Source of the DNA: Synechococcus sp. MU1617
Lineage (GTDB): Bacteria; Cyanobacteriota; Cyanobacteriia; PCC-6307; Cyanobiaceae
DNA length: 64,000 bases
Direction: 5' to 3'
Assembly (NCBI RefSeq): GCF_020514235.1
Contig: NZ_VTLB01000001.1
Location: forward strand, 620,001-684,000
Part shown: positions 9,662 through 23,548 of the stretch, one piece after another
Position numbering within the stretch: the first letter of the stretch is position 1
How the letters are laid out: each line of letters opens with the position of its first letter
The notes under the pieces: model-generated
What the model was told of the DNA's origin: nothing
Databases searched by the model: none
What the model saw: the letters and a program-made list of their open reading frames with translations, nothing else
Made by a program: the position numbers and the translations under genes

Positions 9662-9770
9662 GGAAGAGGCTCCAGCGGAGGTCTTAGTCGGAATGACTAT
9701 GAGTTAGTACATCCTAGTTCAGCCCCCGAGAGGGAAACGGATTAATGTCAGCCACCGTTTGGGCTTGTTC

Positions 9771-11366
9771 GTGACCAAAGGCGCTGTCGCCCTGGTGTTG
9801 CATGCCCATCTGCCTTACGTGCGATCGGCACAACCTGGCTCCCTGGAAGAGGACTGGTTTTTCCAGGCCCTGATCGAGTGCTACCTGCCCCTGCTGGAAA
9901 CGCTGGAGCTGGCCAGCGCCGACCCCAACCAGCAGCCCAAACTCACCATCGGCTTGTCGCCGACGCTGCTGTCGCTGCTGAGTGATCAAGACCTCAAGCA
10001 GCGTTTCCCCCAGTGGCTGAACGAACGGCTGGATCTTCTGCCAAAAGCGGATCCATCGCTGCGTGAGGGCGCCGAACACCTGGCGGCCGCGATCGAGCGG
10101 CATCGGCTGGCTTGGCGGTCCTGCGACGGTGACCTGATCCAACGCTTCGCTGCCCTGCAACGCGATGGAGTGGTGGACCTGCTCACCTGCGGCGCCACCC
10201 ACGGCTATCTGCCCCTGCTGCGCCATCACCCGGAAGCGGTGCGCGGCCAACTGCGCACGGCGGTGCGGGAACACCAACGTCTTGTGGGCGAACGCCCCTT
10301 GGGGATCTGGTTGCCCGAGTGCGCTTATTACGAAGGCCTGGATCGCTGGATGCGCGATGCCGGGCTGCGTTACGCCGTGCTGGATGGCCATGGGCTGCTG
10401 CATGGCCGACCCAGACCCCGCTACGGGGTGTACGCCCCGATCTGCAGCCGCAACGGGGTGGCCTTCTTCGGGCGTGACAGTGATGCAACCCTGCCGGTTT
10501 GGTCGGCCAAGGACGGTTACCCCGGCGATCCCCACTACCGGGAGTTCCATCGCGATCTGGGCTGGGACCTGCCCATCGAAGAGCTGAAGCCCCTGGGGCT
10601 CGACCAACCCCGCCCGCTTGGTCTGAAGCTGCATCGGGTGACCGATCACAGTGCACCGTTGGACCGGAAACAGCCCTATGAACCGGGAGTGGCGGCTGAA
10701 CGGGTGAAAGAGCATGCCGCCGATTACCTGCAGGGCCGGCGGCGGCAGTTGGATCAGCTCGGGAATGCCATGGAAGTGCCGCCGTTGCTGGTAGCCCCCT
10801 TCGATGCGGAACTGTTTGGCCACTGGTGGTTTGAGGGGCCGGCGTTTCTCAGCCAGCTGTTCCGGCAGGCTCCCCATGAGGGGGTGAGCTTCACCCGGCT
10901 ACGCGATGTGCTGAACAGCGTTGGCCAACTTCAGCTCTGTGATCCCTCCCCCTCCAGCTGGGGACAAGGCGGCTATCACGACTACTGGCTGAACGACAGC
11001 AACGCCTGGATCATCCCGGAGTGGGAAAAGGCCAGCGCCGCGATGGTGCAGCGCTGCAGCCGCGGCGTGGGCAGCGAGCAGGCCATGCAATGGCTGCAGC
11101 AGGCGGCGCGGGAACTGTTGCTGGCGCAGTCGTCGGATTGGAGCTTCATCCTCCGAGCCGGCACCACCACCGAACTGGCCAAAGAACGGGTGGAGCGCCA
11201 CCTGGGCCGCTTCTGGCAACTGATGCAGGCGATCGATGGCACTGCCGAGTTACCGGAGGGCTGGCTCGAGGAGGTGCAGACGGACGACCGCCTTTTCCCA
11301 ATGATTCAGCCGCTGGACTGGGCCCCGGTCCAGCCCACCGCACAGCCTGCTGCACCCAGCGCATAA
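9771..11366 (+). CDS. GH57 family glucan-branching-type enzyme
   Basis: About 531 residues from a GTG (VTKGAVALVLHAHLPYVRS); a TTG four codons earlier is an alternative. The N-terminal catalytic domain has the GH57 opening LHAHLPYVR, the nucleophile Glu in GIWLPECAYYEGLD and the acid/base Asp in APFDAELFGHWWFEGP, followed by a DUF1957-like C-terminal helical region. This architecture is that of GH57 1,4-alpha-glucan branching enzymes, so a role in glycogen synthesis is likely though substrate tests vary within the family. It diverges from leuA and ends just before a strong hairpin. Confidence 0.88.
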   Translation: MTKGAVALVLHAHLPYVRSAQPGSLEEDWFFQALIECYLPLLETLELASADPNQQPKLTIGLSPTLLSLLSDQDLKQRFPQWLNERLDLLPKADPSLREGAEHLAAAIERHRLAWRSCDGDLIQRFAALQRDGVVDLLTCGATHGYLPLLRHHPEAVRGQLRTAVREHQRLVGERPLGIWLPECAYYEGLDRWMRDAGLRYAVLDGHGLLHGRPRPRYGVYAPICSRNGVAFFGRDSDATLPVWSAKDGYPGDPHYREFHRDLGWDLPIEELKPLGLDQPRPLGLKLHRVTDHSAPLDRKQPYEPGVAAERVKEHAADYLQGRRRQLDQLGNAMEVPPLLVAPFDAELFGHWWFEGPAFLSQLFRQAPHEGVSFTRLRDVLNSVGQLQLCDPSPSSWGQGGYHDYWLNDSNAWIIPEWEKASAAMVQRCSRGVGSEQAMQWLQQAARELLLAQSSDWSFILRAGTTTELAKERVERHLGRFWQLMQAIDGTAELPEGWLEEVQTDDRLFPMIQPLDWAPVQPTAQPAAPSA

Positions 11367-11459: not shown

Positions 11460-14400
11460 TCAGAACTGGAAGGTCACACCGCCGCTCGCACGCCAGGTCG
11501 TGCCCCGGTCGCTGGCCCAGAACTCCATACCGCCTCTTCCGTACAGCTTCACCGAGATGCCGTTGACGTTCTGCACCGTGTAATCAAGGCCCGCCTCGAT
11601 CAAGGCGCCGTTCTCGGTGCCCAGCTGTGACTCGAAATTCACCGTCTTGTCGGTGAACTTGTAGCCAATCTCCTGGCCCTCGTTATTGGTGTTCCAATCG
11701 GCGAGCCAGGCCGCCCGCAGACTCGGCACCAGCAATGCCCGCTCACCGGTGCGGATCGGCACCGACAGCTTCATGCCCAACTCCGTCTCAGCAAAGTTGG
11801 TGGTGCGGCTCTTGTACTTCAGCCGCAGATTCTTCTCGGAGCCATTGGTCTCTGCAAAGCCTTGTTCGTGGTTGCGGGTCCACACCACCTGGCCCTGCGG
11901 CTCGAGCACCACGCCACCAGTCTTGAACGGGGCACCAATCCGAAGTGCGCCCAGATAGCTGGTAACGCTCTTGTCACCCCGGGCTGTATTCCCGCCCAAG
12001 TCGTCGTTAATCCGCAGGATGTTGCGCGACTGCTCACCACTGAATTCACTCGCCCCCAGCAGGCCCTGCACATAGAAATGGCGAGTGGAGTAATGGGCCG
12101 TTAAGCCGCCACCCCAGCCCTCGGGGTTCCAGCTGCCGCCACCGGTCTCGCCACTGTGCTGGTTCACATTCAGATCGCCGTAATTGGCATAGGCACCGAT
12201 CTGGAACGTCTCGCTCAAGGCCACATCCACACCAAAGCTGGTGCCGTAGGCGTTCAAGTCGTAGTCGTTGTACAAAATCGACGACTCATCAGCCCGGCTG
12301 TTGCCGCCGAATCCCTTCACCCAGGCGCTAACGCCATCACGCTTGGCCAGATCCAGCTCGTCATCCTGCAGATCGACAAAGCTCACATCACCAGCACCCT
12401 CCCCTTCCTCAACAACGGCCTTGTCTTGCAGATCCGCTTCGCTAGCCACCAGCTCCTCGAACTGACGCAGCGGTTGCCGCTCAAACACCGCATCCACCAG
12501 CAAGTTGTTGTGCAGCGCCAAGCCACGGCCAGCAGCATCCACATTCCGGGGCGCTAAGCCGCTACTCACCAACCGCGCCAATTGGCCGTAATCAAAGCCA
12601 AAGGGAAGATCAAGTTCATCATCATCTAGACCATCATGTAAACCGTCGATGATTTCACCAGCGACCTCTTCTTCTTCCTCCAAGGCCTGATCATCATCAC
12701 CATCGATATCACTAATCACGTCGCACAGATCATCACCCACATCACAACCAGGCAATTGGTCAAGTTCACCATCGCCATCGGCATCGGGATCACCAGATTC
12801 ATCATCATCACCCTTGAGATCCTCCTTTAAGTCGCCGAGATCTTTTTGGACGACAACCATCTTCAACGATCCTTCTTCGAGCCGCACATCAGAGAGGGCA
12901 GCCGCCGCTAGAGGTTCATCAACACCATCGAATCGAGCAACGCGGTAAACACGCTCGCCGATCGTGACAAGATCGTCATCTCCTTCAGCAATCTCATCCG
13001 CCAAAGCAGGAACAAGCAGATAGGTGTTTTTGGCGAGTTGGTCAGCATTTTCAACCTCACCATCAATCACATTCCAGGTGCCTTCCTGCTGACGTGAAGC
13101 ATCGTCAGCCATGACCATATAAAGCTTGGCATCACCAGAATCGTTGCTCTCAGCAAAAACAAAAGATGCAGCTTTATCCATTTGAATTGGTGCTGTTGCA
13201 TCCGTTCCGGAATCAAGGAATGCAGCAATCCGTCCTTGATCAAATTCAAGCCGCTCCTTAATCTTGACAGGCGCCAAAGAAGACACCGTCAGCATGGCCT
13301 GGGGATCACCGGCGATCTTGAGACTCTTCAGGTAAGCGCTATAAACGGAATTCCCGCCAGAAGATTGCCTTGGGAAGGTGCTGAGATCCAGAATTCCATT
13401 TCCAGACAGAGTGAAGTCTGAGTAGGGACTGAGGGCCAATGGGCTGGCTGAAATTAACCTGCCCTTCTTCACAAAGGTGGGTGAGGAATATGTATTGACG
13501 CCAGAAAGAGTGAGATCTCCTTCAGATGTTTTTGTGATGGAGCCGAGGCCAGACAAACCACCATCATCAATCGTGCCCTCAAACACCCCGGATCGAATCT
13601 CTAAATCAGCGCCCTCGATCTCATCACCTGAGGCATCGGCCGTGGACTGTCTCGGGCTCAAGAGAAGGTCACCGCCACCAGAGAGGGAATTGATGGTGTG
13701 ATCAAATCCCTGAAGATCCAAAAGGCCACCCTTTTCAATCACAACAGACGACTTGTCAGACAATGCGAAATTATTTTCGGCGTAGAGAGTTGCTCCATCC
13801 TGAATGGTTGTTTCACCGGCGTAGCTGCTCTCTCCCGAGAGGCGGACTTCGCCCAAAGTGGTAAGTGATGTATTGGCACCATGAATTCCATCAATCACAC
13901 CAAGGGATGCATTGGAATCAACCTCAATGCTTAAGTCGTTACTTTCACCATCGATCCGCTGGAATGTTGCACGACTTACAGAGGTTGTACCCTTCAAATC
14001 GTGGTTCAGGTCAGTCGTCTTAACTTCAATCGTGCCCGCTGCCGTGGTGTCAGGAAATACGCCAAAGTCGTCTGATGAGGCATTAACGGCATACGACCAT
14101 GTGCCGCCCAACTGATGAATCGCCTCAATATCAACAATACCACCAACAATCAACTCACCGCCGGCATCGGAGTTGTTCTCTCCCAACACAATTGTTTCCT
14201 TTTGCACTGGAAGATCATTCGAAACAAAGCCACGGCTGTCTCGAAAACGCTGACGCAACTCATTACCGCCCTCGATCAACACAGCACGCAGAGATCCTTT
14301 CTCGACATGAATCGTGTTGGTACTATCACGCCCCAAAGCGACAACTCCTGCCTCAACTCGAGCTCCATCGGCAATAATAATTGTTTGATCGTTTTCTTTT

Positions 14401-17400
14401 TCACCCGTAATGCCAACACATTTCGTCAATGGAGCACTAAACTTCTTTTTGCCACCCCGCACCTGACAATCCTTCCCCTGCGGGAAAATCCAATCACCAC
14501 CAGCGTCTAACTTAATAGCAGCAAAATTGACCAACTGAGTCTCCTCTAATCCAGAAGAATTATCAGAAGAGTCAGAACGTGGATCAAGGCCCTGCCTAAA
14601 GATGTTGAGGCCTTGCACCGGCTTAGTAAGTTCAAGAACTAACTCCTCACCACCATCAATGATCGATTGACCAATATCAAAAGTGCCACGGTTCAAGATG
14701 AGATCATTGCCACCACGCAGGTTGATTGAAGTCTTACCTTTATCCCTTGTTGTAGTAGAGATAATTCCACTGTTCAAGATGACATCATTATTCGAGCCCA
14801 TTGTGATTTTCTCGGCCACCAAAGTTCCTGGCTGGGGCTTATCGCCTTGAATAACGTCCCTCAGGTTGCGGATGTTGATCAGCGCATGACCACCATCTTT
14901 TGCGTCGTCATTGTCTTGATACTTGAGTTCACCAGCGATCTCAATGGTGCCACCCAGATTTTTCAGAGATCCCTGAGCTTTTATTCGGAGCAATGGTGAA
15001 TCATCATCAAGAACTCCACGATCATCCAGAACATCCAACAAGTGCTTCATGCCATTGTTGACCGTGAGCGAATCAATCTGAACATCACCAGCATTGGTGA
15101 GACTGGTTACTGATAAAGCACCATTCTCGATTCTGCCCGTATTAGCAACAAGCAATCGTTTCGCAAAATTTTGCTTAATTTCACCTGTCGATTGATCGCC
15201 AATACTTAAAAGGCCACGAACAAAGGTGGGGGATTCAGGGCTGATCGCATCGGCATAAAGCGTTTGAAGACTGCCATCTGTCATCACCACCGTGGCGCCT
15301 CGGTAAGTGCTCGGCGTTTGATCACTTTGCCCCTCTACATCACCTAAAACCATTTCACCATTGTTGAGAATGGCTGCTTTATTCGATATTTCCGTGAGCG
15401 AACTGTCATGCAATCCCTCGAGGATGGTGAGCTTGCCATCCTGTCGTGCACCAACCAACAGACGACGATCACCAGCAGCAGTAATCGATTTAAACGTCAC
15501 CTCATCAATATCGTCCTGTTCGCCATCATCTTTAATTGAAGTGTCGTCATCAGATCGTGTTGTTGTCACGATGCCCTGGGCATCAAGATCAATATCACCA
15601 AAATCACCTTCATAACCCCACATGCCGCCCAGTTGGAGCGCTTTGGAATAGCCCTCGGTTTCATCGACCTTCAAAGAGCCTTTAACAACACTGCTGGAGA
15701 TCTGTTCAACCAAGGATTGATCGAGTGATATAGACGAAGGATCGATCGAAGCACCAATCTTTAGCTCCGGATTCTGGCCGATATCCTCCAGATCAGTCGC
15801 ATGCAGAAGATCAGCATCCAGAGATCCATTCACAACATGTATCGAAGCAATATTATGAATCGCCTGTGCATTCACAGTTGGGGAAGAAGAATTCTCGCCA
15901 ACAACCAAAGAGTTGAAAGAGTTATTAACAGTGCGATCAAAAGTGATATCTCCAGAATTGACATTAATTCGCTCACTTCCAATAACTCCATCGATCAATC
16001 CAGCCGTCAGAGATCCATCAAGCACTTCAATGCTGTTACGACTAGAGCGTCCCAGCTCCATCACGCCAGTTTCAACATTGGCGCCATTCGTTATTTTTAA
16101 AAACTGAGACTTATCCCTTTGACCAACAATACCGACACAATCAGTTTTATCCTCACTAAAAATGCGACCATTGCCAGTCACACGGCAGTCGTTGCCCTGT
16201 GGGAAGATCCAGTCACCTCCAGCCTCTAACTTAATAGCAGCAAAATTGACGAGTTGAGACTCTACTAAACCCGATGAATTGGAAGAAGGGTTTTCAGAAT
16301 TAATGGAGAGGCGATCATACCCTTGTCTAAAGATGTTAAGGCCCTTAACGGTACGAGTATCGCGGTTAAGAATCGAACCCGTAATTTCCAGTGGCTCACC
16401 ACCATCAATAATCGATTCACCAATATCAAAGCTGCCGCGGTTGAGGATAAGGTCATTACCACCACCAAGATCAATGGAGGTAGATTGACGCGTTGTTGTG
16501 GAGATTGTTCCACTATTTGAGATGATATCTCTATTTTCGCCCATAGTAATCTTCTGAGCGATCAATGTTCCAGGCTGAGGCTTATCACCACCATCATTCA
16601 AGTATTTAATTACATCCCTGAGATTACGAACATTGATAAGTGCATGCCCATCCGTTGCGTCGTCATTGTCTTGATACTTGAGTTCACCAGCGATCTCAAT
16701 GGTGCCACCCAAATTTTTCAGCGATCCCTGCGCTTTAATTTTGCGTATTGGCGCATTATCATCAAGACCCTGTCGTTCCAAAACATCCAACAAGCGCTTC
16801 ATCCCGTTGTTGATCGTGAGCGAATCAATCTCCACATCACCAGCATTGGCAAGACTTGTAATTGAGAGATCACCATTCTGAATTGATCCTGTTTGTCCAA
16901 CAATCAAACGTCGGGCAAAATTCTGGCTAACTCCACTTCCACTGCCTCCCGATTCACCAATCTGGAGCTCACCTCGAACCAAGGTGGGTGATTGTGGACC
17001 AATCGCATCGTCTTCAAGGGTCGTGATCGAGCCATCTTCCATGGCAACAGTAAGGCCCTTGTAGGTACTCGGGTTATTGCCACCAGAGACTCCCAGCACC
17101 ACCTCACCATTAGAAATCAAGGACGCCTTTTTTGCACCATCAGATTTTCGAACTGGTGACCATGAATCGTGAATACCATTCGTGACTTTCAGAACACCAT
17201 CGTTTCTCGCACCAATCAGAAGCAGTCGGGAGCCTTCTGCTGTGATCGACTTGAACGTTGCGGATGATTCTGAATCGTCGTTGCCATCACCCACGACGAC
17301 AACACCTTGACCTGAAAGATCAGTGGATGAATAATCGCCTTCATAACTCCACAGCCCACCCTTTTGCTTGATCGTCGCAATGGATTGGTCAGACGCACCA

Positions 17401-19277
17401 ATGGACAAGCGGCCTGACGCGACCTGATCCAAATCAGCACCACTGCCAGGACTGACCATTGATTCACGCAACGTTTTTAGTGACGCGTCGGAGGACACCT
17501 CAAGTGGTGCGCCAAGAATGAATTCGTGGGTTTTACCCTTGGGATTTGACTGGAGAGCAGCAACATCCAGTGATCCTTGCCTTAGGTGAATTGTTGAATC
17601 ACCATTCAGTTGGAGCAGGCCAACATTGATACCGTCCTCAGAATCTTTAATAGTGGTGTCGGAACTAAAATTTAGCTCGTAGTTGGTAGCCGTAGAAACA
17701 ATCGATCCGTATTCTTGGTAAATAGAATTATCAACATCACGGCTGGCAGCAGTGATAATCAGGCTCGCCTTATCACCAAGATAAGCAAGGCCCTCGCCTT
17801 TCAAGTCAACAATCTCGAAGCCTTGAACATTGGATGAATCAAAGGAAAGCGATGCATTTTGATTCCAGAAAACATCATAATCACCAGATCCACCATCGAT
17901 GATTTCACCATCTCCTAAATTGATTAAACCTCGATTACCAATTCGCATCAGATCATTGCCTGAGCCCAGATCAATCGAACCGTCGACCGTTAACGATCCT
18001 TGAACATCTAATTTGTCGGATAGTTCAAAAGCAGCCCCACTTGAAACAAAATCACCACCAAGAATATTCTCTGAAAAATCAACGCTGGCCGACTCATCAA
18101 TCAAAACAGTGGCACGATCAATTTGAAGGGTCTTAAAATTATTTGAACCCATAAAGGTCAAATTGACATTTCCCTCGAAATCATTATCCGATGAAGCCTT
18201 GATAGTAACAGGCTCGCCATCAATGCCATCGATAATATTATTTGTACGCCTATCTACATTAATTTGTGCACTACCAATCGTTCCATTTTTTAGAGTACCA
18301 CCATGCAAATTATAGGAAGGAGCACTTTGAGTACTTCCACCAAGATCCAAAGTTGGTTGATCTTTAGAAGATGAAATTAATACTGTCGAATCGCCGCTAA
18401 GGCTTTCGTCTTCTTGCAGCAATAATGTTCCATCATGCACCTTGGTAAAACCAGTGTGGCGAAATGTGCCAGAGAAGGTCGTTGTTCCCGATCCTTTTTT
18501 AACAAGTGCTCCATCACCCTGAGATGTACCTGAGAATTCAACATCTCCGTTCAAACCACCATAAAAAAGATGAGATTGTTTTTGCAAAGTAACTAGACCT
18601 TCTCCTGTCAGCTCACCAATCTCTTGATCTTCTCGCCCTTTATTATTGTCTCGTTCTGGATTGTCCCCCAAGATCAAAGTTCCATCCACTTGATGGATGG
18701 ATTCAGAACTCAAACTCCAAGCCTGACCAGCACGCAACGTGCCGCCTTCTTTAATCGTGGTTGTACCCGAATAAGAACTGAGGGTACTTCCTTGTTTTAA
18801 ATCAACATCACGATCAGCTTTAAACACACCCAGTTCAGAGTCACCACCCAATGTGGCTAGGCCCGAGATCTGAAAATCAATATTGTCGCCACGAATGGCT
18901 CTGACAGAAAAATCAGAATACTTATCGATCGAAATAATTTGAGAATTACCCGATCCCAGATCCAAATCACCTACGAGATGCAGATCTCCACCAAATTCAT
19001 CCTGTGTGTTCCCTAGTCGCAGCGCATCATTAGAAGCGCCTAATTCAACGGAACCCCAAATCGCGACGGGCTGCGTACCATCGCTCTTCTTTTTCACCCA
19101 AATACTATCTTTACCTTTACTACCGACAATGGCGGCATAACCATATCCACCGTCGTCCCAACGACAGCCATAATCACTGCGGTCTGTTGTCGACTTTTTA
19201 CCACCACAATTTTCTAAGCCTTTTTCAACCCCCCAACCCAAAGAATTGCGGTAAGAAACCACCGCGTTTCCAAACAA
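11460..19277 (-). CDS. Autotransporter, C-terminal piece: passenger plus beta-barrel
   Basis: 2605 codons. The passenger contains many autotransporter-associated beta-strand repeats such as FSGTFRHTGFTKVHDGTLLL, LSGESSYAGETTIQDGATL and LSGVNTYSSPTFVKKGRL, suggesting a long beta-helix. Two tandem copies of a roughly 585-residue module fill about residues 565-1670. An acidic D/E-rich linker with DPDADGDGELDQ lies near residues 2146-2226. The last roughly 270 residues form an autotransporter beta-barrel ending GGVTFQF, with the C-terminal Phe expected for outer-membrane insertion. The piece has no signal peptide, and its first possible start is an unsupported TTG. The frame stays open upstream for 41 more codons to a TGA, beyond which the signal-peptide half continues in the same frame. 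It is best read as one interrupted gene. Base composition is clearly more A+T-rich than the flanks. Confidence 0.85.
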   Translation of the reverse strand: MFGNAVVSYRNSLGWGVEKGLENCGGKKSTTDRSDYGCRWDDGGYGYAAIVGSKGKDSIWVKKKSDGTQPVAIWGSVELGASNDALRLGNTQDEFGGDLHLVGDLDLGSGNSQIISIDKYSDFSVRAIRGDNIDFQISGLATLGGDSELGVFKADRDVDLKQGSTLSSYSGTTTIKEGGTLRAGQAWSLSSESIHQVDGTLILGDNPERDNNKGREDQEIGELTGEGLVTLQKQSHLFYGGLNGDVEFSGTSQGDGALVKKGSGTTTFSGTFRHTGFTKVHDGTLLLQEDESLSGDSTVLISSSKDQPTLDLGGSTQSAPSYNLHGGTLKNGTIGSAQINVDRRTNNIIDGIDGEPVTIKASSDNDFEGNVNLTFMGSNNFKTLQIDRATVLIDESASVDFSENILGGDFVSSGAAFELSDKLDVQGSLTVDGSIDLGSGNDLMRIGNRGLINLGDGEIIDGGSGDYDVFWNQNASLSFDSSNVQGFEIVDLKGEGLAYLGDKASLIITAASRDVDNSIYQEYGSIVSTATNYELNFSSDTTIKDSEDGINVGLLQLNGDSTIHLRQGSLDVAALQSNPKGKTHEFILGAPLEVSSDASLKTLRESMVSPGSGADLDQVASGRLSIGASDQSIATIKQKGGLWSYEGDYSSTDLSGQGVVVVGDGNDDSESSATFKSITAEGSRLLLIGARNDGVLKVTNGIHDSWSPVRKSDGAKKASLISNGEVVLGVSGGNNPSTYKGLTVAMEDGSITTLEDDAIGPQSPTLVRGELQIGESGGSGSGVSQNFARRLIVGQTGSIQNGDLSITSLANAGDVEIDSLTINNGMKRLLDVLERQGLDDNAPIRKIKAQGSLKNLGGTIEIAGELKYQDNDDATDGHALINVRNLRDVIKYLNDGGDKPQPGTLIAQKITMGENRDIISNSGTISTTTRQSTSIDLGGGNDLILNRGSFDIGESIIDGGEPLEITGSILNRDTRTVKGLNIFRQGYDRLSINSENPSSNSSGLVESQLVNFAAIKLEAGGDWIFPQGNDCRVTGNGRIFSEDKTDCVGIVGQRDKSQFLKITNGANVETGVMELGRSSRNSIEVLDGSLTAGLIDGVIGSERINVNSGDITFDRTVNNSFNSLVVGENSSSPTVNAQAIHNIASIHVVNGSLDADLLHATDLEDIGQNPELKIGASIDPSSISLDQSLVEQISSSVVKGSLKVDETEGYSKALQLGGMWGYEGDFGDIDLDAQGIVTTTRSDDDTSIKDDGEQDDIDEVTFKSITAAGDRRLLVGARQDGKLTILEGLHDSSLTEISNKAAILNNGEMVLGDVEGQSDQTPSTYRGATVVMTDGSLQTLYADAISPESPTFVRGLLSIGDQSTGEIKQNFAKRLLVANTGRIENGALSVTSLTNAGDVQIDSLTVNNGMKHLLDVLDDRGVLDDDSPLLRIKAQGSLKNLGGTIEIAGELKYQDNDDAKDGGHALINIRNLRDVIQGDKPQPGTLVAEKITMGSNNDVILNSGIISTTTRDKGKTSINLRGGNDLILNRGTFDIGQSIIDGGEELVLELTKPVQGLNIFRQGLDPRSDSSDNSSGLEETQLVNFAAIKLDAGGDWIFPQGKDCQVRGGKKKFSAPLTKCVGITGEKENDQTIIIADGARVEAGVVALGRDSTNTIHVEKGSLRAVLIEGGNELRQRFRDSRGFVSNDLPVQKETIVLGENNSDAGGELIVGGIVDIEAIHQLGGTWSYAVNASSDDFGVFPDTTAAGTIEVKTTDLNHDLKGTTSVSRATFQRIDGESNDLSIEVDSNASLGVIDGIHGANTSLTTLGEVRLSGESSYAGETTIQDGATLYAENNFALSDKSSVVIEKGGLLDLQGFDHTINSLSGGGDLLLSPRQSTADASGDEIEGADLEIRSGVFEGTIDDGGLSGLGSITKTSEGDLTLSGVNTYSSPTFVKKGRLISASPLALSPYSDFTLSGNGILDLSTFPRQSSGGNSVYSAYLKSLKIAGDPQAMLTVSSLAPVKIKERLEFDQGRIAAFLDSGTDATAPIQMDKAASFVFAESNDSGDAKLYMVMADDASRQQEGTWNVIDGEVENADQLAKNTYLLVPALADEIAEGDDDLVTIGERVYRVARFDGVDEPLAAAALSDVRLEEGSLKMVVVQKDLGDLKEDLKGDDDESGDPDADGDGELDQLPGCDVGDDLCDVISDIDGDDDQALEEEEEVAGEIIDGLHDGLDDDELDLPFGFDYGQLARLVSSGLAPRNVDAAGRGLALHNNLLVDAVFERQPLRQFEELVASEADLQDKAVVEEGEGAGDVSFVDLQDDELDLAKRDGVSAWVKGFGGNSRADESSILYNDYDLNAYGTSFGVDVALSETFQIGAYANYGDLNVNQHSGETGGGSWNPEGWGGGLTAHYSTRHFYVQGLLGASEFSGEQSRNILRINDDLGGNTARGDKSVTSYLGALRIGAPFKTGGVVLEPQGQVVWTRNHEQGFAETNGSEKNLRLKYKSRTTNFAETELGMKLSVPIRTGERALLVPSLRAAWLADWNTNNEGQEIGYKFTDKTVNFESQLGTENGALIEAGLDYTVQNVNGISVKLYGRGGMEFWASDRGTTWRASGGVTFQF
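14268..15825 (-). repeat. Passenger tandem module, copy 2
   Basis: The second full copy, from NGSLDADLLHAT to KGSLRAVLIEGG, with the matching landmarks GGMWGYEGDFGD, TFKSITAAGDRRLLVGAR, NFAKRLLVANTG, LGGTIEIAGELKYQDNDDA, GGNDLILNRGTFDIG and NFAAIKLDAGGDWIFPQG. A 57-base stretch is identical in both copies (14900-14956 and 16655-16711) while much of the rest has diverged. A partial third unit follows, with GGTWSYAVN and VSRATFQRIDGES near 13930-14100. Confidence 0.85.
15988..17576 (-). repeat. Passenger tandem module, copy 1
   Basis: The upstream of two full copies of a roughly 1.75 kb module in the autotransporter passenger. It runs from RQGSLDVAALQ to DGSLTAGLIDG and includes GGLWSYEGDYSS, ATFKSITAEGSRLLLIGAR, NFARRLIVGQTG, LGGTIEIAGELKYQDNDDA, GGNDLILNRGSFDIG and NFAAIKLEAGGDWIFPQG. 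The second copy carries the same landmarks in the same order at an offset of 1731-1755 bases. Confidence 0.85.
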
Positions 19278-19400
19278 ATTGAGCTTATTGACATCAGTGT
19301 CTAGAGAATTATCATTTTCGATCTTGATTGCTGTGCCTAGGGCAAGACGATCATCGAGAACACCAATTCCTCGCGATATACCATTATTGATTGCACCACC

Positions 19401-22106
19401 TCATTGAAAAGTAACCGTATCGCTTCCCTTACCCATCACAATATTGCCGCGAATAACACCCTGGTTCCCTAAAGTATCGTCGCCTGATTCACCATTAAAG
19501 CTACCTCTGAGATAACTTCCTTGGTGATTAGTGAATGCATCATTTCCGCCCCCCATGAAGACATTAACCGTATAATTCCTCTTGGCATCCTTACTATTTG
19601 CATAAGGCAAATTGCCACCTGTTTTTCTATTCGCATCGTCACAGGTGTTCTCATACTTGTACCCATTAAATCCCTGATCATCAGCACCAGCCGTCACACA
19701 TCCAAGCCAACTACCATTTCTGTCGTCCACATTCCCATTCTCAAGAACATCATTCCCAGCATTGAAACGAAGCTGCAAATGATTCCCAGTTCCTGCTTCC
19801 CCAGGGCCAACAACCAAACCATTGTTGAACATTGAATCGGCGCCATTTCCGAACACTATTTGCGGTCGAATGGAGTAGCACGTTTCTTCATCTGACCCTT
19901 CTTTGCAGTTATCTTTGTAGGCGTCATATTCGGTCGGCAATGCACCGGTAAAACTAGCCACCAATAGGCTGCCATTCTCGACAGTTAATTCATTGATTGA
20001 ATCATCGAATTCAATAATTGGTGAAGCATGGTTTTCGATCTTAGCTATCGTGCCTTCCGATGAGGCTTCCTCACCAGGTGTCCTTGGGCCATACTCTGTA
20101 TGTACATCATGTCCAGTAACCCGTAAAGCAGTACCACCTTTTACGGATAGGTCATGTCCAAGTCTGAGAGATACTGAAGCCTCAGATGGATCCATACCAT
20201 CAGGATTAATATTCTCACCATTAATATCCAACTGACCTCCTTCAACAATCAAGGATCCATAGGCATTTTTTCCCGACAGGATTAATTTTCCAGAACCATC
20301 CTTGATGAAGGTTCCTTGCAAAGAATTAGCTTCAGGACCGCCAAGAATGGACCCTTCAAACTCAGGATTTTTACCCTCCGGGACATTGACACTGAGGTGC
20401 GCATTATCTGTATTTAAGACAATTCTTCCTTCCCCTTCGATAGAGCTAACGGTATTGAGGCGGCCATCTGTATCTGGTCCTCCCATCAAGCGCAGTGTTG
20501 CGCCTTTATTTACCGTTACCTCAGTTGTGCTAGGGGTGGATGTGGTATCTGCAAAACGCAGTTCACCCGCCTCAATGATCGTTGCTCCCTCATAGGTTTG
20601 CGGTTTTACACCGCCAAGGCGGAGAAAGCCCTTGCCATCCTTAATCAGACCGCCTTCACCAGAAATTATACTTCTCGCGAAGACTTCAGTACTACCATCT
20701 TTAACCCTAATAGTTGAATTAACACCTTCACCTTCTAAGACAGCGCCATTTTTTAGATCAATATAGTTGCCATTCAGATCCAATTCACCACCAGCCAAGG
20801 TGATTTCTTCATTGATCTTTGCGTCGTTACTTGCTGAACCCTGAGGTGTTGACTGGCCACTGACGGAAATTCTCAGAACGGCATCCTTTTCCACACGGGT
20901 GCCTGCATCAGCAGAGCCCAATCCATTGACGTTGGTGATTTCGAGAACACCTTCTGTAACTACCGTAGGGTTGATATAAGAGTTGTCGCCCTGAAGAGAC
21001 GTTGATCCTATGCCCTCAAAAGATAGTGGACTGGGATTTTCAGACGTATTAGCGATCGATTGAATCGCCCCCTGCAGAACAAGATTTTTCCCCTCATTAT
21101 CAACCACTCCACCTTGATCCGACACAAAAAACTGATTGGACAATTCAATCTGATTTTCGTTTGACTTATCAGCAGAAAGCTCCCCACCATCTAACAACGG
21201 CACATAATAATCCGAAGCTACTTTCTCTCCATCCCAACGACAGAGATCATCTTTAGGAAGAATCTTTGATGTGCTTACCGTTTTACCTTGCGAAATCGTG
21301 TTGACCTCACACCCCCCAAAGGCTTGGATTCGGCCCGCACCACCACCCACACCAATCGTGTGATAGGAAATATTATTGTAAAAATAAAGGAGGCCCTCAC
21401 CAGCTGTTGAATCTTTATCTACATCTGGACGTTGATTGCCATCGGGCAATTCATTGCTATCGTGGCGGCCATAGACAAAACCACCTCCATTATCATATCC
21501 ATAAAGGTTGATATTGTCAGAAGCATCTAACTTATCCCTAAGCCGAGTTTTAGCATATTGTTGGTAGCCAGCAGAAAGCCCTTGAGCTAGCTCAACATTA
21601 TTTCTCCAAGGAAAGAATTTGCCAGTTGTCTCTGCTTCTTCATACCATTTGCCGACAGAAATTCCCGGAAGATTCCCCTCATTGACTTGTGGTCTTGACC
21701 ACATGGAGTAAGAAATTCCAAAAAATGTTTTACCGTCCTCACCAGGCAAGATTACTTTGTATTCATCTGGCAATTCATACACGTCAACCTGGTCAGAGTT
21801 GACAATTGGATCTCGATCAACGGGGGGCTTTTCACCGGAAATATTTTCTTCAGACTCGCATTCCTGGCCAGATTGATTTTGGTTATTTTTATCATTATTG
21901 CAAGTACCACCACCCGGTGGCTTATTACCATTACCTCCTTTATCGGCGATTAAAACTTCTTCAGAGCTGAATTCTTCAGCAAAAGCATTAAATGTATTAT
22001 CGGCAATATCCTTAAAACCCTGAGGAGCAGCTTCAGCGCTTTGCGCTAACGACACACTGATCGCTCCACACGCAGCGAGAGCACTGAGCCAATAACGCGC
22101 TGCCAT
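19401..22106 (-). CDS. Autotransporter, N-terminal piece: signal peptide and start of passenger
   Basis: 901 codons from ATG. A Sec signal peptide (MAARYWLSALAACGAISVSL, cleavage near SAEA/APQG) is followed by an Asn/Gly-rich stretch, a globular-looking segment to about residue 330, then beta-strand repeats: LQGDNSYINPTVVTEGVLEI, GVKPQTYEGATIIEAGELRF and LSGKNAYGSLIVEGGQLDI. Near the end come haemolysin-like GGGNDAF and MGKGSDT turns. It has no beta-barrel and stops at TGA after SDTVTFQ. The C-terminal piece is in the same frame immediately downstream, so without suppression this product would be secreted to the periplasm without an anchor or exit pore. The reader should treat both pieces as one gene, probably inactivated or mis-sequenced. 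Confidence 0.85.
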   Translation of the reverse strand: MAARYWLSALAACGAISVSLAQSAEAAPQGFKDIADNTFNAFAEEFSSEEVLIADKGGNGNKPPGGGTCNNDKNNQNQSGQECESEENISGEKPPVDRDPIVNSDQVDVYELPDEYKVILPGEDGKTFFGISYSMWSRPQVNEGNLPGISVGKWYEEAETTGKFFPWRNNVELAQGLSAGYQQYAKTRLRDKLDASDNINLYGYDNGGGFVYGRHDSNELPDGNQRPDVDKDSTAGEGLLYFYNNISYHTIGVGGGAGRIQAFGGCEVNTISQGKTVSTSKILPKDDLCRWDGEKVASDYYVPLLDGGELSADKSNENQIELSNQFFVSDQGGVVDNEGKNLVLQGAIQSIANTSENPSPLSFEGIGSTSLQGDNSYINPTVVTEGVLEITNVNGLGSADAGTRVEKDAVLRISVSGQSTPQGSASNDAKINEEITLAGGELDLNGNYIDLKNGAVLEGEGVNSTIRVKDGSTEVFARSIISGEGGLIKDGKGFLRLGGVKPQTYEGATIIEAGELRFADTTSTPSTTEVTVNKGATLRLMGGPDTDGRLNTVSSIEGEGRIVLNTDNAHLSVNVPEGKNPEFEGSILGGPEANSLQGTFIKDGSGKLILSGKNAYGSLIVEGGQLDINGENINPDGMDPSEASVSLRLGHDLSVKGGTALRVTGHDVHTEYGPRTPGEEASSEGTIAKIENHASPIIEFDDSINELTVENGSLLVASFTGALPTEYDAYKDNCKEGSDEETCYSIRPQIVFGNGADSMFNNGLVVGPGEAGTGNHLQLRFNAGNDVLENGNVDDRNGSWLGCVTAGADDQGFNGYKYENTCDDANRKTGGNLPYANSKDAKRNYTVNVFMGGGNDAFTNHQGSYLRGSFNGESGDDTLGNQGVIRGNIVMGKGSDTVTFQ

Positions 22107-22309
22107 GCAAAGAACACTTGATCAATTGCTTCTTAGACCGTATGCAGGTGATGGAGGGTCCGAAAAGAACAAGTCTCCTGAGACTCAGTAGCAACTGTTG
22201 TATTCAGGCTTATCTCGGCAGCAGCCACAGCTGAATTCAATCCACAACGAACGCTTCGCCGTCAACATCGAAACGGATCACCGGGAGCGAACCAAGCTCT
22301 GCGCGGATC

Positions 22310-23548
22310 TCAAAAACGTGGAGCTTGATCCTGCGCCGCCCCCAGCACCAGCCCCTGCCGCAACTGCCAAGGCGATAGGGCAAACAAGCGCAGCATCACC
22401 GCCATCAAGCGTGGCAGCGGCAACGTGTTGGTGAGAAAGCCAAACCACTCCTCCCGCGGCAGGGAGAAGAACGTTGAGAAGTGGGTGCGCAACAACGCTT
22501 CGTTGAACCCCATCAAGCGGCCCAGGCCAAATTGATAGAGCTGATGGCGCATCACCAACTCGATCGGCCAGAGCGCCTGCCAACCCCGTTGCGCCAAAGC
22601 AGCTGAGCCAAGGTTTTGATTGGCGAGAGCTACGGAAATGGCCTGGGCCAGATCAGGTCCGCGGCGCAACAACGATCCCACCATGTAGCCCGAGGCCGGA
22701 TGCACCATGCTCGCTGCACCTCCAAAAGCCAGCACCGGCTGGCTGCGATCCGGCAGCGGCAGATTCATCGGGAAGAGGCAGAACTCCTCATGGATCACCT
22801 CGGTGATCTCCACGCCGCGCAGATCCAGGCGCTGTTGGAGCCGTTGCTTAAGCACGTCGTAGGGAACACCGGGCGCCAAAGCGAGCGAAGTTTCTTCCAC
22901 GAAGAACACCCCATCACCCAGATCCATCGCATACAAGAACGTGGGTGGTTCGCTGCGCTGCTCCGCGCTGAGGTGATCACAGCGGTAGTCCATCAACACA
23001 AACCGGCCCGGCTCAATGGGCGGTTTGGAGAAACGCCCGACCACGCCATAGGCCGCCTGGCCCGCCACCGGCCCCTGATCCGGGCGACGAATGTGGGGCG
23101 TGCGCGAACCGGAGGCATCAATCACCAAGCGCGCCTGCAATGTGGTTCCCGATCCACAGCTGACGCTGGTGGTTGAACCATTCAGCTCCACCCGTTCGGC
23201 CGTGTCTTGATGCCAGACCACGCCATCGACCCGCTCAAGCCAGTAACGCTGCAAGGCAGCCCGATCGAACAGGCCGTAGTCGATCCCGTGGGTATGGCTC
23301 TGATCCTGAGCCCTTGAACCGCCGTCGCCGAAATAACTGACGGTGTCGCTCCAGCGGTGCTCCAGCAAGTGCTCGAGCCCAACCATCTTCAATTCATCGG
23401 CCCAGATGCCGTAGGTGTTCGGCCAGGGATTGACGACTGGGTCGGGGGCAATGCCGGCAACCGCCACGCCCCGTTGGTTCAGTTCCGAGGCGATGCAGAG
23501 GGCAGCAGGACCACCCCCCAGCACCAGCACATCCACCGGCTCAGCCAA
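22310..23548 (-). CDS. crtL: Lycopene cyclase (CrtL type)
   Basis: 412 residues. A flavin-binding N-terminus (VDVLVLGGGPAALCIASEL) is followed by the lycopene cyclase signature NTYGIW, then LVIDASGSRTPHIRRP and, later, FGGAASMVHPASGYMVGSLL. The enzyme cyclises lycopene ends to beta (or epsilon) rings, leading to beta-carotene and zeaxanthin. Marine Synechococcus often carry two CrtL paralogues; whether this is the beta- or epsilon-type cannot be decided by eye. The start is TTG, two bases after the gyrA stop, so the two are co-transcribed. A roughly 200-base gap separates its 3' end from the autotransporter start. Confidence 0.9.
   Translation of the reverse strand: MAEPVDVLVLGGGPAALCIASELNQRGVAVAGIAPDPVVNPWPNTYGIWADELKMVGLEHLLEHRWSDTVSYFGDGGSRAQDQSHTHGIDYGLFDRAALQRYWLERVDGVVWHQDTAERVELNGSTTSVSCGSGTTLQARLVIDASGSRTPHIRRPDQGPVAGQAAYGVVGRFSKPPIEPGRFVLMDYRCDHLSAEQRSEPPTFLYAMDLGDGVFFVEETSLALAPGVPYDVLKQRLQQRLDLRGVEITEVIHEEFCLFPMNLPLPDRSQPVLAFGGAASMVHPASGYMVGSLLRRGPDLAQAISVALANQNLGSAALAQRGWQALWPIELVMRHQLYQFGLGRLMGFNEALLRTHFSTFFSLPREEWFGFLTNTLPLPRLMAVMLRLFALSPWQLRQGLVLGAAQDQAPRF

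Follow-up and report, generated by a model that had tools for sequence, protein, structure and literature searches.

A terminal aromatic residue is a defining signal of type Va autotransporters. Among the cyanobacteria compared in the available text of PMC4365693, autotransporter-domain proteins were specific for Synechococcus strains. For marine Synechococcus, the available portion of PMC4949707 describes giant, lineage-specific exported proteins, SwmB among them, calls them interaction proteins, and suggests horizontal transfer for the genes that encode them. In Anaplasma msp2 and Borrelia vlsE, according to the accessible part of PMC4534519, silent donors feed an expression site. Here, we compare with these systems a giant autotransporter gene of Synechococcus sp. 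MU1617 (genome code G000; by gene content and relatives probably a marine picocyanobacterium), whose two tandem modules share a 57-base identical block. The gene lies in a 64,000-nucleotide stretch of DNA (the window), the coordinates of which are used throughout (Table 1).

The gene has a stop-to-stop length of 3553 codons, an internal TGA included, and appears in the list of open reading frames (ORFs) as two ORFs of 901 and 2605 amino acids (aa), the first of which has an ATG ending at 22106. Its barrel scored well above the PF03797 cutoff of 26 bits, which marks it as a type Va C-terminal translocator; PF12951 (PATR) repeats, as in a type Va passenger, were found in four stretches of the 2605-aa part and three of the 901-aa part, and the C terminus (...GGVTFQF) ends in phenylalanine. 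A hydrophobic stretch, judged by eye, follows the start in the window gene and in its orthologues in two genomes of the same genus, G014 and G006. These orthologous frames are uninterrupted (3530 and 3516 aa, respectively), such that putative signal, passenger, and barrel lie in one open frame in both, whereas the TGA divides that frame in the window. The window gene is either a broken member of the family or a read-through case, and the TGA may reflect a dead gene, read-through, a polymorphism, or a sequencing error; with it in place, only a 901-aa fragment lacking the barrel may be made. Membership in the type Va family makes a surface role for the encoded protein likely.

Table 1. Features of the autotransporter gene in window coordinates (G000:C1 positions refer to the contig)
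Feature	Position	Strand	Basis or remark
Whole autotransporter gene	11460..22121	-	Both fragments in the same frame; align end to end with the G014 and G006 frames
Autotransporter beta-barrel, PF03797	11571..12326	-	hmmscan, 111 bits, E 1.1e-31; G000:C1:631571-632326
Third, partial unit (GGTWSY ... ATFQRI ... GIHG)	13842..14129	-	Shuffle-tested local alignment
Module copy 2, 507 aa	14130..15650	-	Alignment; profile match G000:C1:634130-635650
Copy 2 zone equivalent to that of copy 1	14830..14996	-	Site patterns; contains a single positional site (14883)
Copy 2 of the 57-base identical block (probable recipient)	14900..14956	-	Sequence comparison
Module copy 1, 578 aa	15651..17384	-	Alignment; profile match G000:C1:635876-637381
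Copy 1 zone without positional pattern versus G014	16573..16751	-	Site patterns; contains a single positional site (16641)
Copy 1 of the 57-base identical block (probable donor)	16655..16711	-	Sequence comparison
In-frame TGA between the 901-aa and 2605-aa ORFs	19401..19403	-	Sense codon in relatives

The initial annotation of this DNA had proposed two tandem modules with ordered landmarks, and a repeat finder recovered them as direct repeats spaced 1719 to 1755 bases apart; at the 57-base block, the landmarks are 585 residues apart, from residue 856 to residue 1441 of the 2605-aa ORF. The bounds given for the pair (14268 to 17576) are better replaced by the limits in Table 1. Both modules are encoded on the minus strand as parts of the single larger, TGA-interrupted gene. 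The copies were 62.8% identical in DNA over 1455 compared bases, and identity in windows of 120 columns varied between 38 and 88%, a non-uniform profile that agrees with the uneven divergence noted at the outset. A third, partial unit suspected near 13930 to 14100 proved to be real but weak, with limits refined to approximately those in Table 1: its local alignment with the start of module 1 scored 78, a value that none of 1000 shuffles attained, and that with module 2 scored 67, which one shuffle in 1000 attained. The large tandem modules were left uncovered by Pfam and NCBIfam models at E values up to 1, and AlphaFold2 returned a poor model of copy 2 from a two-row alignment (mean pLDDT 32.9, pTM 0.26).

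The duplication is old and is common to the window, G014, and G006 lineages. A first search with the 1133-aa module region gave matches in 3 of 39 genomes, and a search of 400 genomes sampled from across the family gave five, namely the window's genome, G014, G006, and two genomes of another genus, G297 and G336. In the latter two, the frames (2727 and 2699 aa) contain a single module each, with a counterpart of the third unit after it (scores of 176 and 154, respectively). A module profile matched five genomes among 34 from the genus; the window's genome, G014, and G006 each contained two full modules, and the matches in G182 and G005 were partial and weak. In trees of the module flanks, pairing of the two copies from the same genome was rejected in all three genomes, both for columns 0 to 600 (p-AU 2.6e-5, 6.2e-6, and 2.9e-65) and for columns 1080 to 1600 (p-AU 4.5e-13, 5.9e-7, and 1.6e-6). 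Since same-genome pairing was rejected throughout, the duplication is shared and predates the lineage split at this gene. The clade of the three copy 2s was weakly supported in these trees (71/73 and 58/33), one of which carries a long-branch warning. The block had also been thought capable of mediating changes in copy number, an idea that gained no support: all three genomes that carry the duplication have exactly two modules, and this constancy refers to three species represented by one genome each.

The 57-base block itself was found exactly where it had been reported. No run of 57 arose in 5000 codon shuffles spanning the modules; with shuffling confined to the central zone, where the copies are more similar, 2 of 5000 reached it (p 0.0004). 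Within the window's genome, the block matched only its two known places, and no third donor or silent copy was found. It differed from the four orthologous copies in G014 and G006 at 4, 13, 11, and 10 of 57 positions. Zero viral contigs contained a 33-base piece of the block, and a phage collection yielded no match to the 2605-aa part; based on these absent matches, a viral or phage origin was rejected.

Each lineage carries its own identical blocks, and the positional pattern is lost in the center of the modules. The longest identical blocks between copies (window, 57 bases; G014, 35; G006, 40 and 83) fell in differing columns; the 35-base run of G014 was less unusual within the zone (p 0.0128) and sits where the other copies have gaps. 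Of 373 informative sites in the comparison of the window with G014, 356 were positional, 13 concerted, and 4 crossed, and the clustering score of the concerted sites was reached in 0 of 10000 shuffles. The window and G006 gave 180 positional, 48 concerted, and 26 crossed sites with clustering equally beyond 10000 shuffles (0 reached it), and G014 and G006 gave 172, 38, and 24, respectively, with weak clustering (p 0.0228). For the central zone (columns 600 to 960), trees rejected both the three copy 1s (p-AU 5.0e-5) and the three copy 2s (p-AU 4.3e-5) as groups. The G006 copies formed a clade there with support of 100/99; the window pair (p-AU 0.149) and the G014 pair (0.157) were neither supported nor rejected, and the same was true of the window copies in a tree of the 90-column block segment (p-AU 0.47).

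Within a genome, the two copies agreed over at most 21 consecutive polymorphic sites in the window, 20 in G014, and 26 in G006, lengths that 0 of 5000 shuffles attained in each case. The six cross-genome, cross-copy pairs gave runs of 5, 10, 13, 4, 8, and 9 (p 0.75, 0.0058, 0.0008, 0.93, 0.056, and 0.0038, respectively), such that three of the six fell below 0.01. The run of 13 joined copy 2 of the window to copy 1 of G014, as expected if copy 1 of the window had converted copy 2; for the other pairs with low p values, rates that vary by region or exchange between genomes may be responsible. When only the 169 silent polymorphic sites were used, the within-genome runs were 6 (window, p 0.35), 4 (G014, p 0.86), and 7 (G006, p 0.035, an uncorrected and marginal value), and the cross pair of window copy 1 with G006 copy 2 gave a run of 11 (p 0.0008). 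The silent-only run test cannot carry the conversion claim by itself. Synonymous divergence (pS) between the window copies was 0.25 in columns 750 to 840 (29 codons), 0.33 in columns 600 to 750, and 0.65 to 0.82 elsewhere, while pS in columns 750 to 840 was 0.67 between the G014 copies and 0.58 between those of G006. The low values of the other genomes lay in other columns (G006, 0.12 in columns 600 to 750; G014, 0.40 in columns 840 to 960). An excess of synonymous identity in the block was evident by segment but not in the window's stricter silent-only run test.

Taken together, copies within a genome are alike where their orthologues differ, with reservations attached to the silent-run test, the p values of the cross pairs, and the window pair that the trees neither support nor reject; outside the tracts, orthology is positional, as seen in the site counts and the rejected flank pairs. 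From these three genomes with both modules, we consider lineage-specific, short-tract, non-allelic gene conversion between old tandem modules of the passenger to be the best explanation, with a probability of roughly 0.8. By this account, a tandem duplication arose long ago inside a giant type Va passenger and would since have diverged over most of its length. The modules would exchange stretches of tens of bases in their more similar central zone, separately in each lineage, presumably through non-allelic conversion by homologous recombination; the gene itself also recombines between lineages. In the window lineage, a tract containing the 57-base block would have moved from copy 1 to copy 2. 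The block differs at 4 of 57 bases from copy 1 of G014 and at 13 of 57 from copy 2, although overall identity between the window and G014 is similar for the copy 2s (89.6%) and the copy 1s (86.7%). Since the block is nearer to G014 copy 1 while the copy 2s are equally close overall, the overwriting in the window probably ran from copy 1 into copy 2; for G006, distances favored neither direction.

Synonymous divergence also reveals the gene to be a mosaic between lineages. Between the window and G014, pS was 0.65 to 0.78 over residues 1 to 386, 0.12 to 0.55 over residues 387 to 2776, and 0.53 to 0.74 beyond, compared with 0.59 to 0.66 in four flanking genes. A count of codon changes unique to the window or to G014, intended to detect relaxed constraint after the TGA, is confounded by the window being the far branch and by its divergent first 386 residues. 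Between the window and G003, whose locus lacks such a gene, pS in the same four flanking genes was 0.24 to 0.31. The window barrel (residues 3243 to 3538), in contrast, had a pS of 0.29 to 0.42 relative to a short autotransporter at the same locus in G005 and of 0.61 to 0.75 relative to G014. These contrasts imply that the gene has its interior in common with a distant clade and its barrel with a near one. The first 386 residues represent a different allele that matched 4 of 34 genomes of the genus; besides the window's own, the best matches were 40% identical in G005 and 40 to 41% in G014 and G006. The orthologues of G014 and G006 (L006:5525-16117 and L007:4250-14800) were themselves synonymously identical over 282 codons (window residues 980 to 1266; pS 0.00) and diverged on both sides, with a pS of 0.57 to 0.68 over most of the modules and of 0.16 to 0.31 in the flanking genes. 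Recombination between lineages probably occurs because variation in a large, surface-exposed passenger would be advantageous.

Exchange between genomes of this kind, as in the 282-codon stretch of G014 and G006, raises an alternative, namely, that the central mosaic stems from allelic recombination with other lineages rather than from events between modules of one chromosome. Some of the cross-genome, cross-copy runs do exceed shuffle expectation. However, exchange at the same position cannot make copies 1 and 2 of one genome alike, all cross runs (4 to 13 sites) are shorter than the within-genome runs (20 to 26), and the block is limited to its two places in the window's genome. We therefore regard this alternative as unlikely.

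Slightly less probable still is purifying selection on a beta-strand, at the protein or DNA level, that keeps the 57 bases identical with no conversion. The central zone is indeed the part most conserved between copies, at the protein level too, and the single-module relatives retain GSLKN.GG there. Constraint nonetheless cannot produce between-genome differences that are concerted in both copies, the other genomes have their identity between copies elsewhere, and the orthologues depart from the block at 4 to 13 of 57 bases and in residues as well. The specific suggestion of strong constraint on the LGGTIEIAGELKYQDNDD strand gained no support, as that sequence is absent from both copies in both orthologues, and because the block differs in orthologues, constraint alone on it was rejected. 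Of the two possibilities offered initially, duplication and divergence with local gene conversion thus stands, on the strength of two orthologues and two single-module relatives, and strand constraint does not. A collapse or mis-join of modules during assembly, or a sequencing artefact, is very improbable despite the 10 contigs of the 2.32-Mb window assembly and the liability of repeats to mis-assembly, since the modules are just 62.8% identical and similar blocks occur in orthologues from single-contig genomes.

The gene that carries these modules is patchily distributed. It sits between crtL (22310 to 23548) and a gene at 9759 to 11366; the names crtL and GH57-like neighbor next to leuA are ones that we presume from reading the sequences. 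crtL was present in 32 of 34 genomes of the genus, and the locus was inspected in 17 of the 29 crtL genomes other than the window's, G014, and G006. At a threshold of E 1e-8, the orthologous giant gene was absent, with no autotransporter at the locus, in 16 of these 17: the two neighbors were touching or within 129 bases of each other in 15, and G008 had a 1.4-kb gap with no match. The remaining genome, G005, had an autotransporter of 1353 aa (L058:8836-12897).

Across the genus, PF03797 matched 13 of 34 genomes (12 above the cutoff); the window's genome contains it in four reading frames, as does G005. A comparison of the final 927 bases put the identity among six barrels (those of the window gene, another gene of its genome, and four G005 genes) at 86.7 to 91.9%; the G182 barrel was 80.9 to 82.3% identical to those six, and the G014 and G006 barrels were 72.1 to 75.4% identical. 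The other autotransporters (L069:5174-8578, L058, L071, and L072) combine barrel DNA of 86.7 to 91.9% identity with passengers that are largely unlike, and the passenger of the second window-genome gene matched the window gene over only 48 barrel-adjacent residues (E 1e-5, low-complexity filtered). The barrel tree was largely unresolved. The window's genome also holds a second giant open frame of 4757 aa (L070:1382-15655), with PF03797 in two stretches near its end. Speculatively, a nearly interchangeable barrel, unlike passengers at several loci, interiors that cross distant clades at the same chromosomal site, and inter-converting modules could together form a system for passenger diversification, a possibility that we consider less likely than not; if true, grazers, phages, or partners would face an ever-changing cell surface.

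Bacterial surface proteins are well known to undergo these processes, of which we describe a new instance in a little-studied gene. A literature search of titles and abstract openings, which left subscription journals mostly uncovered, found no description of gene conversion in cyanobacterial autotransporters. In marine picocyanobacteria, giant surface proteins have hardly been characterized, although the cell surface is the point of contact with grazers and phages. Since a few genomes suffice to trace how modules duplicate and convert one another, how clades exchange parts of the gene, and whether the locus is occupied at all, the gene offers a tractable case for studying what drives such turnover.

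With type Va autotransporters (PF03797 and PF12951), the gene has in common the C-terminal barrel, the PATR passenger repeats, and the terminal phenylalanine; unlike them, it is much longer (3553 codons), contains large tandem modules outside the Pfam and NCBIfam models, and has a broken frame in the window. Compared by description, it resembles SwmB-type proteins in giant size, patchy distribution, and probable surface exposure, although the term "autotransporter" does not occur in the available text of PMC4949707. Its likeness to msp2 and vlsE, as portrayed in the accessible part of PMC4534519, lies in short, patchy conversion tracts and mosaic surface proteins. Unlike those systems, the window's genome had no silent copies that we could find and gave no sign of rapid programmed switching; rather than a silent cassette feeding an expression site, the probable donor and recipient here are both expressed-frame modules of one gene.
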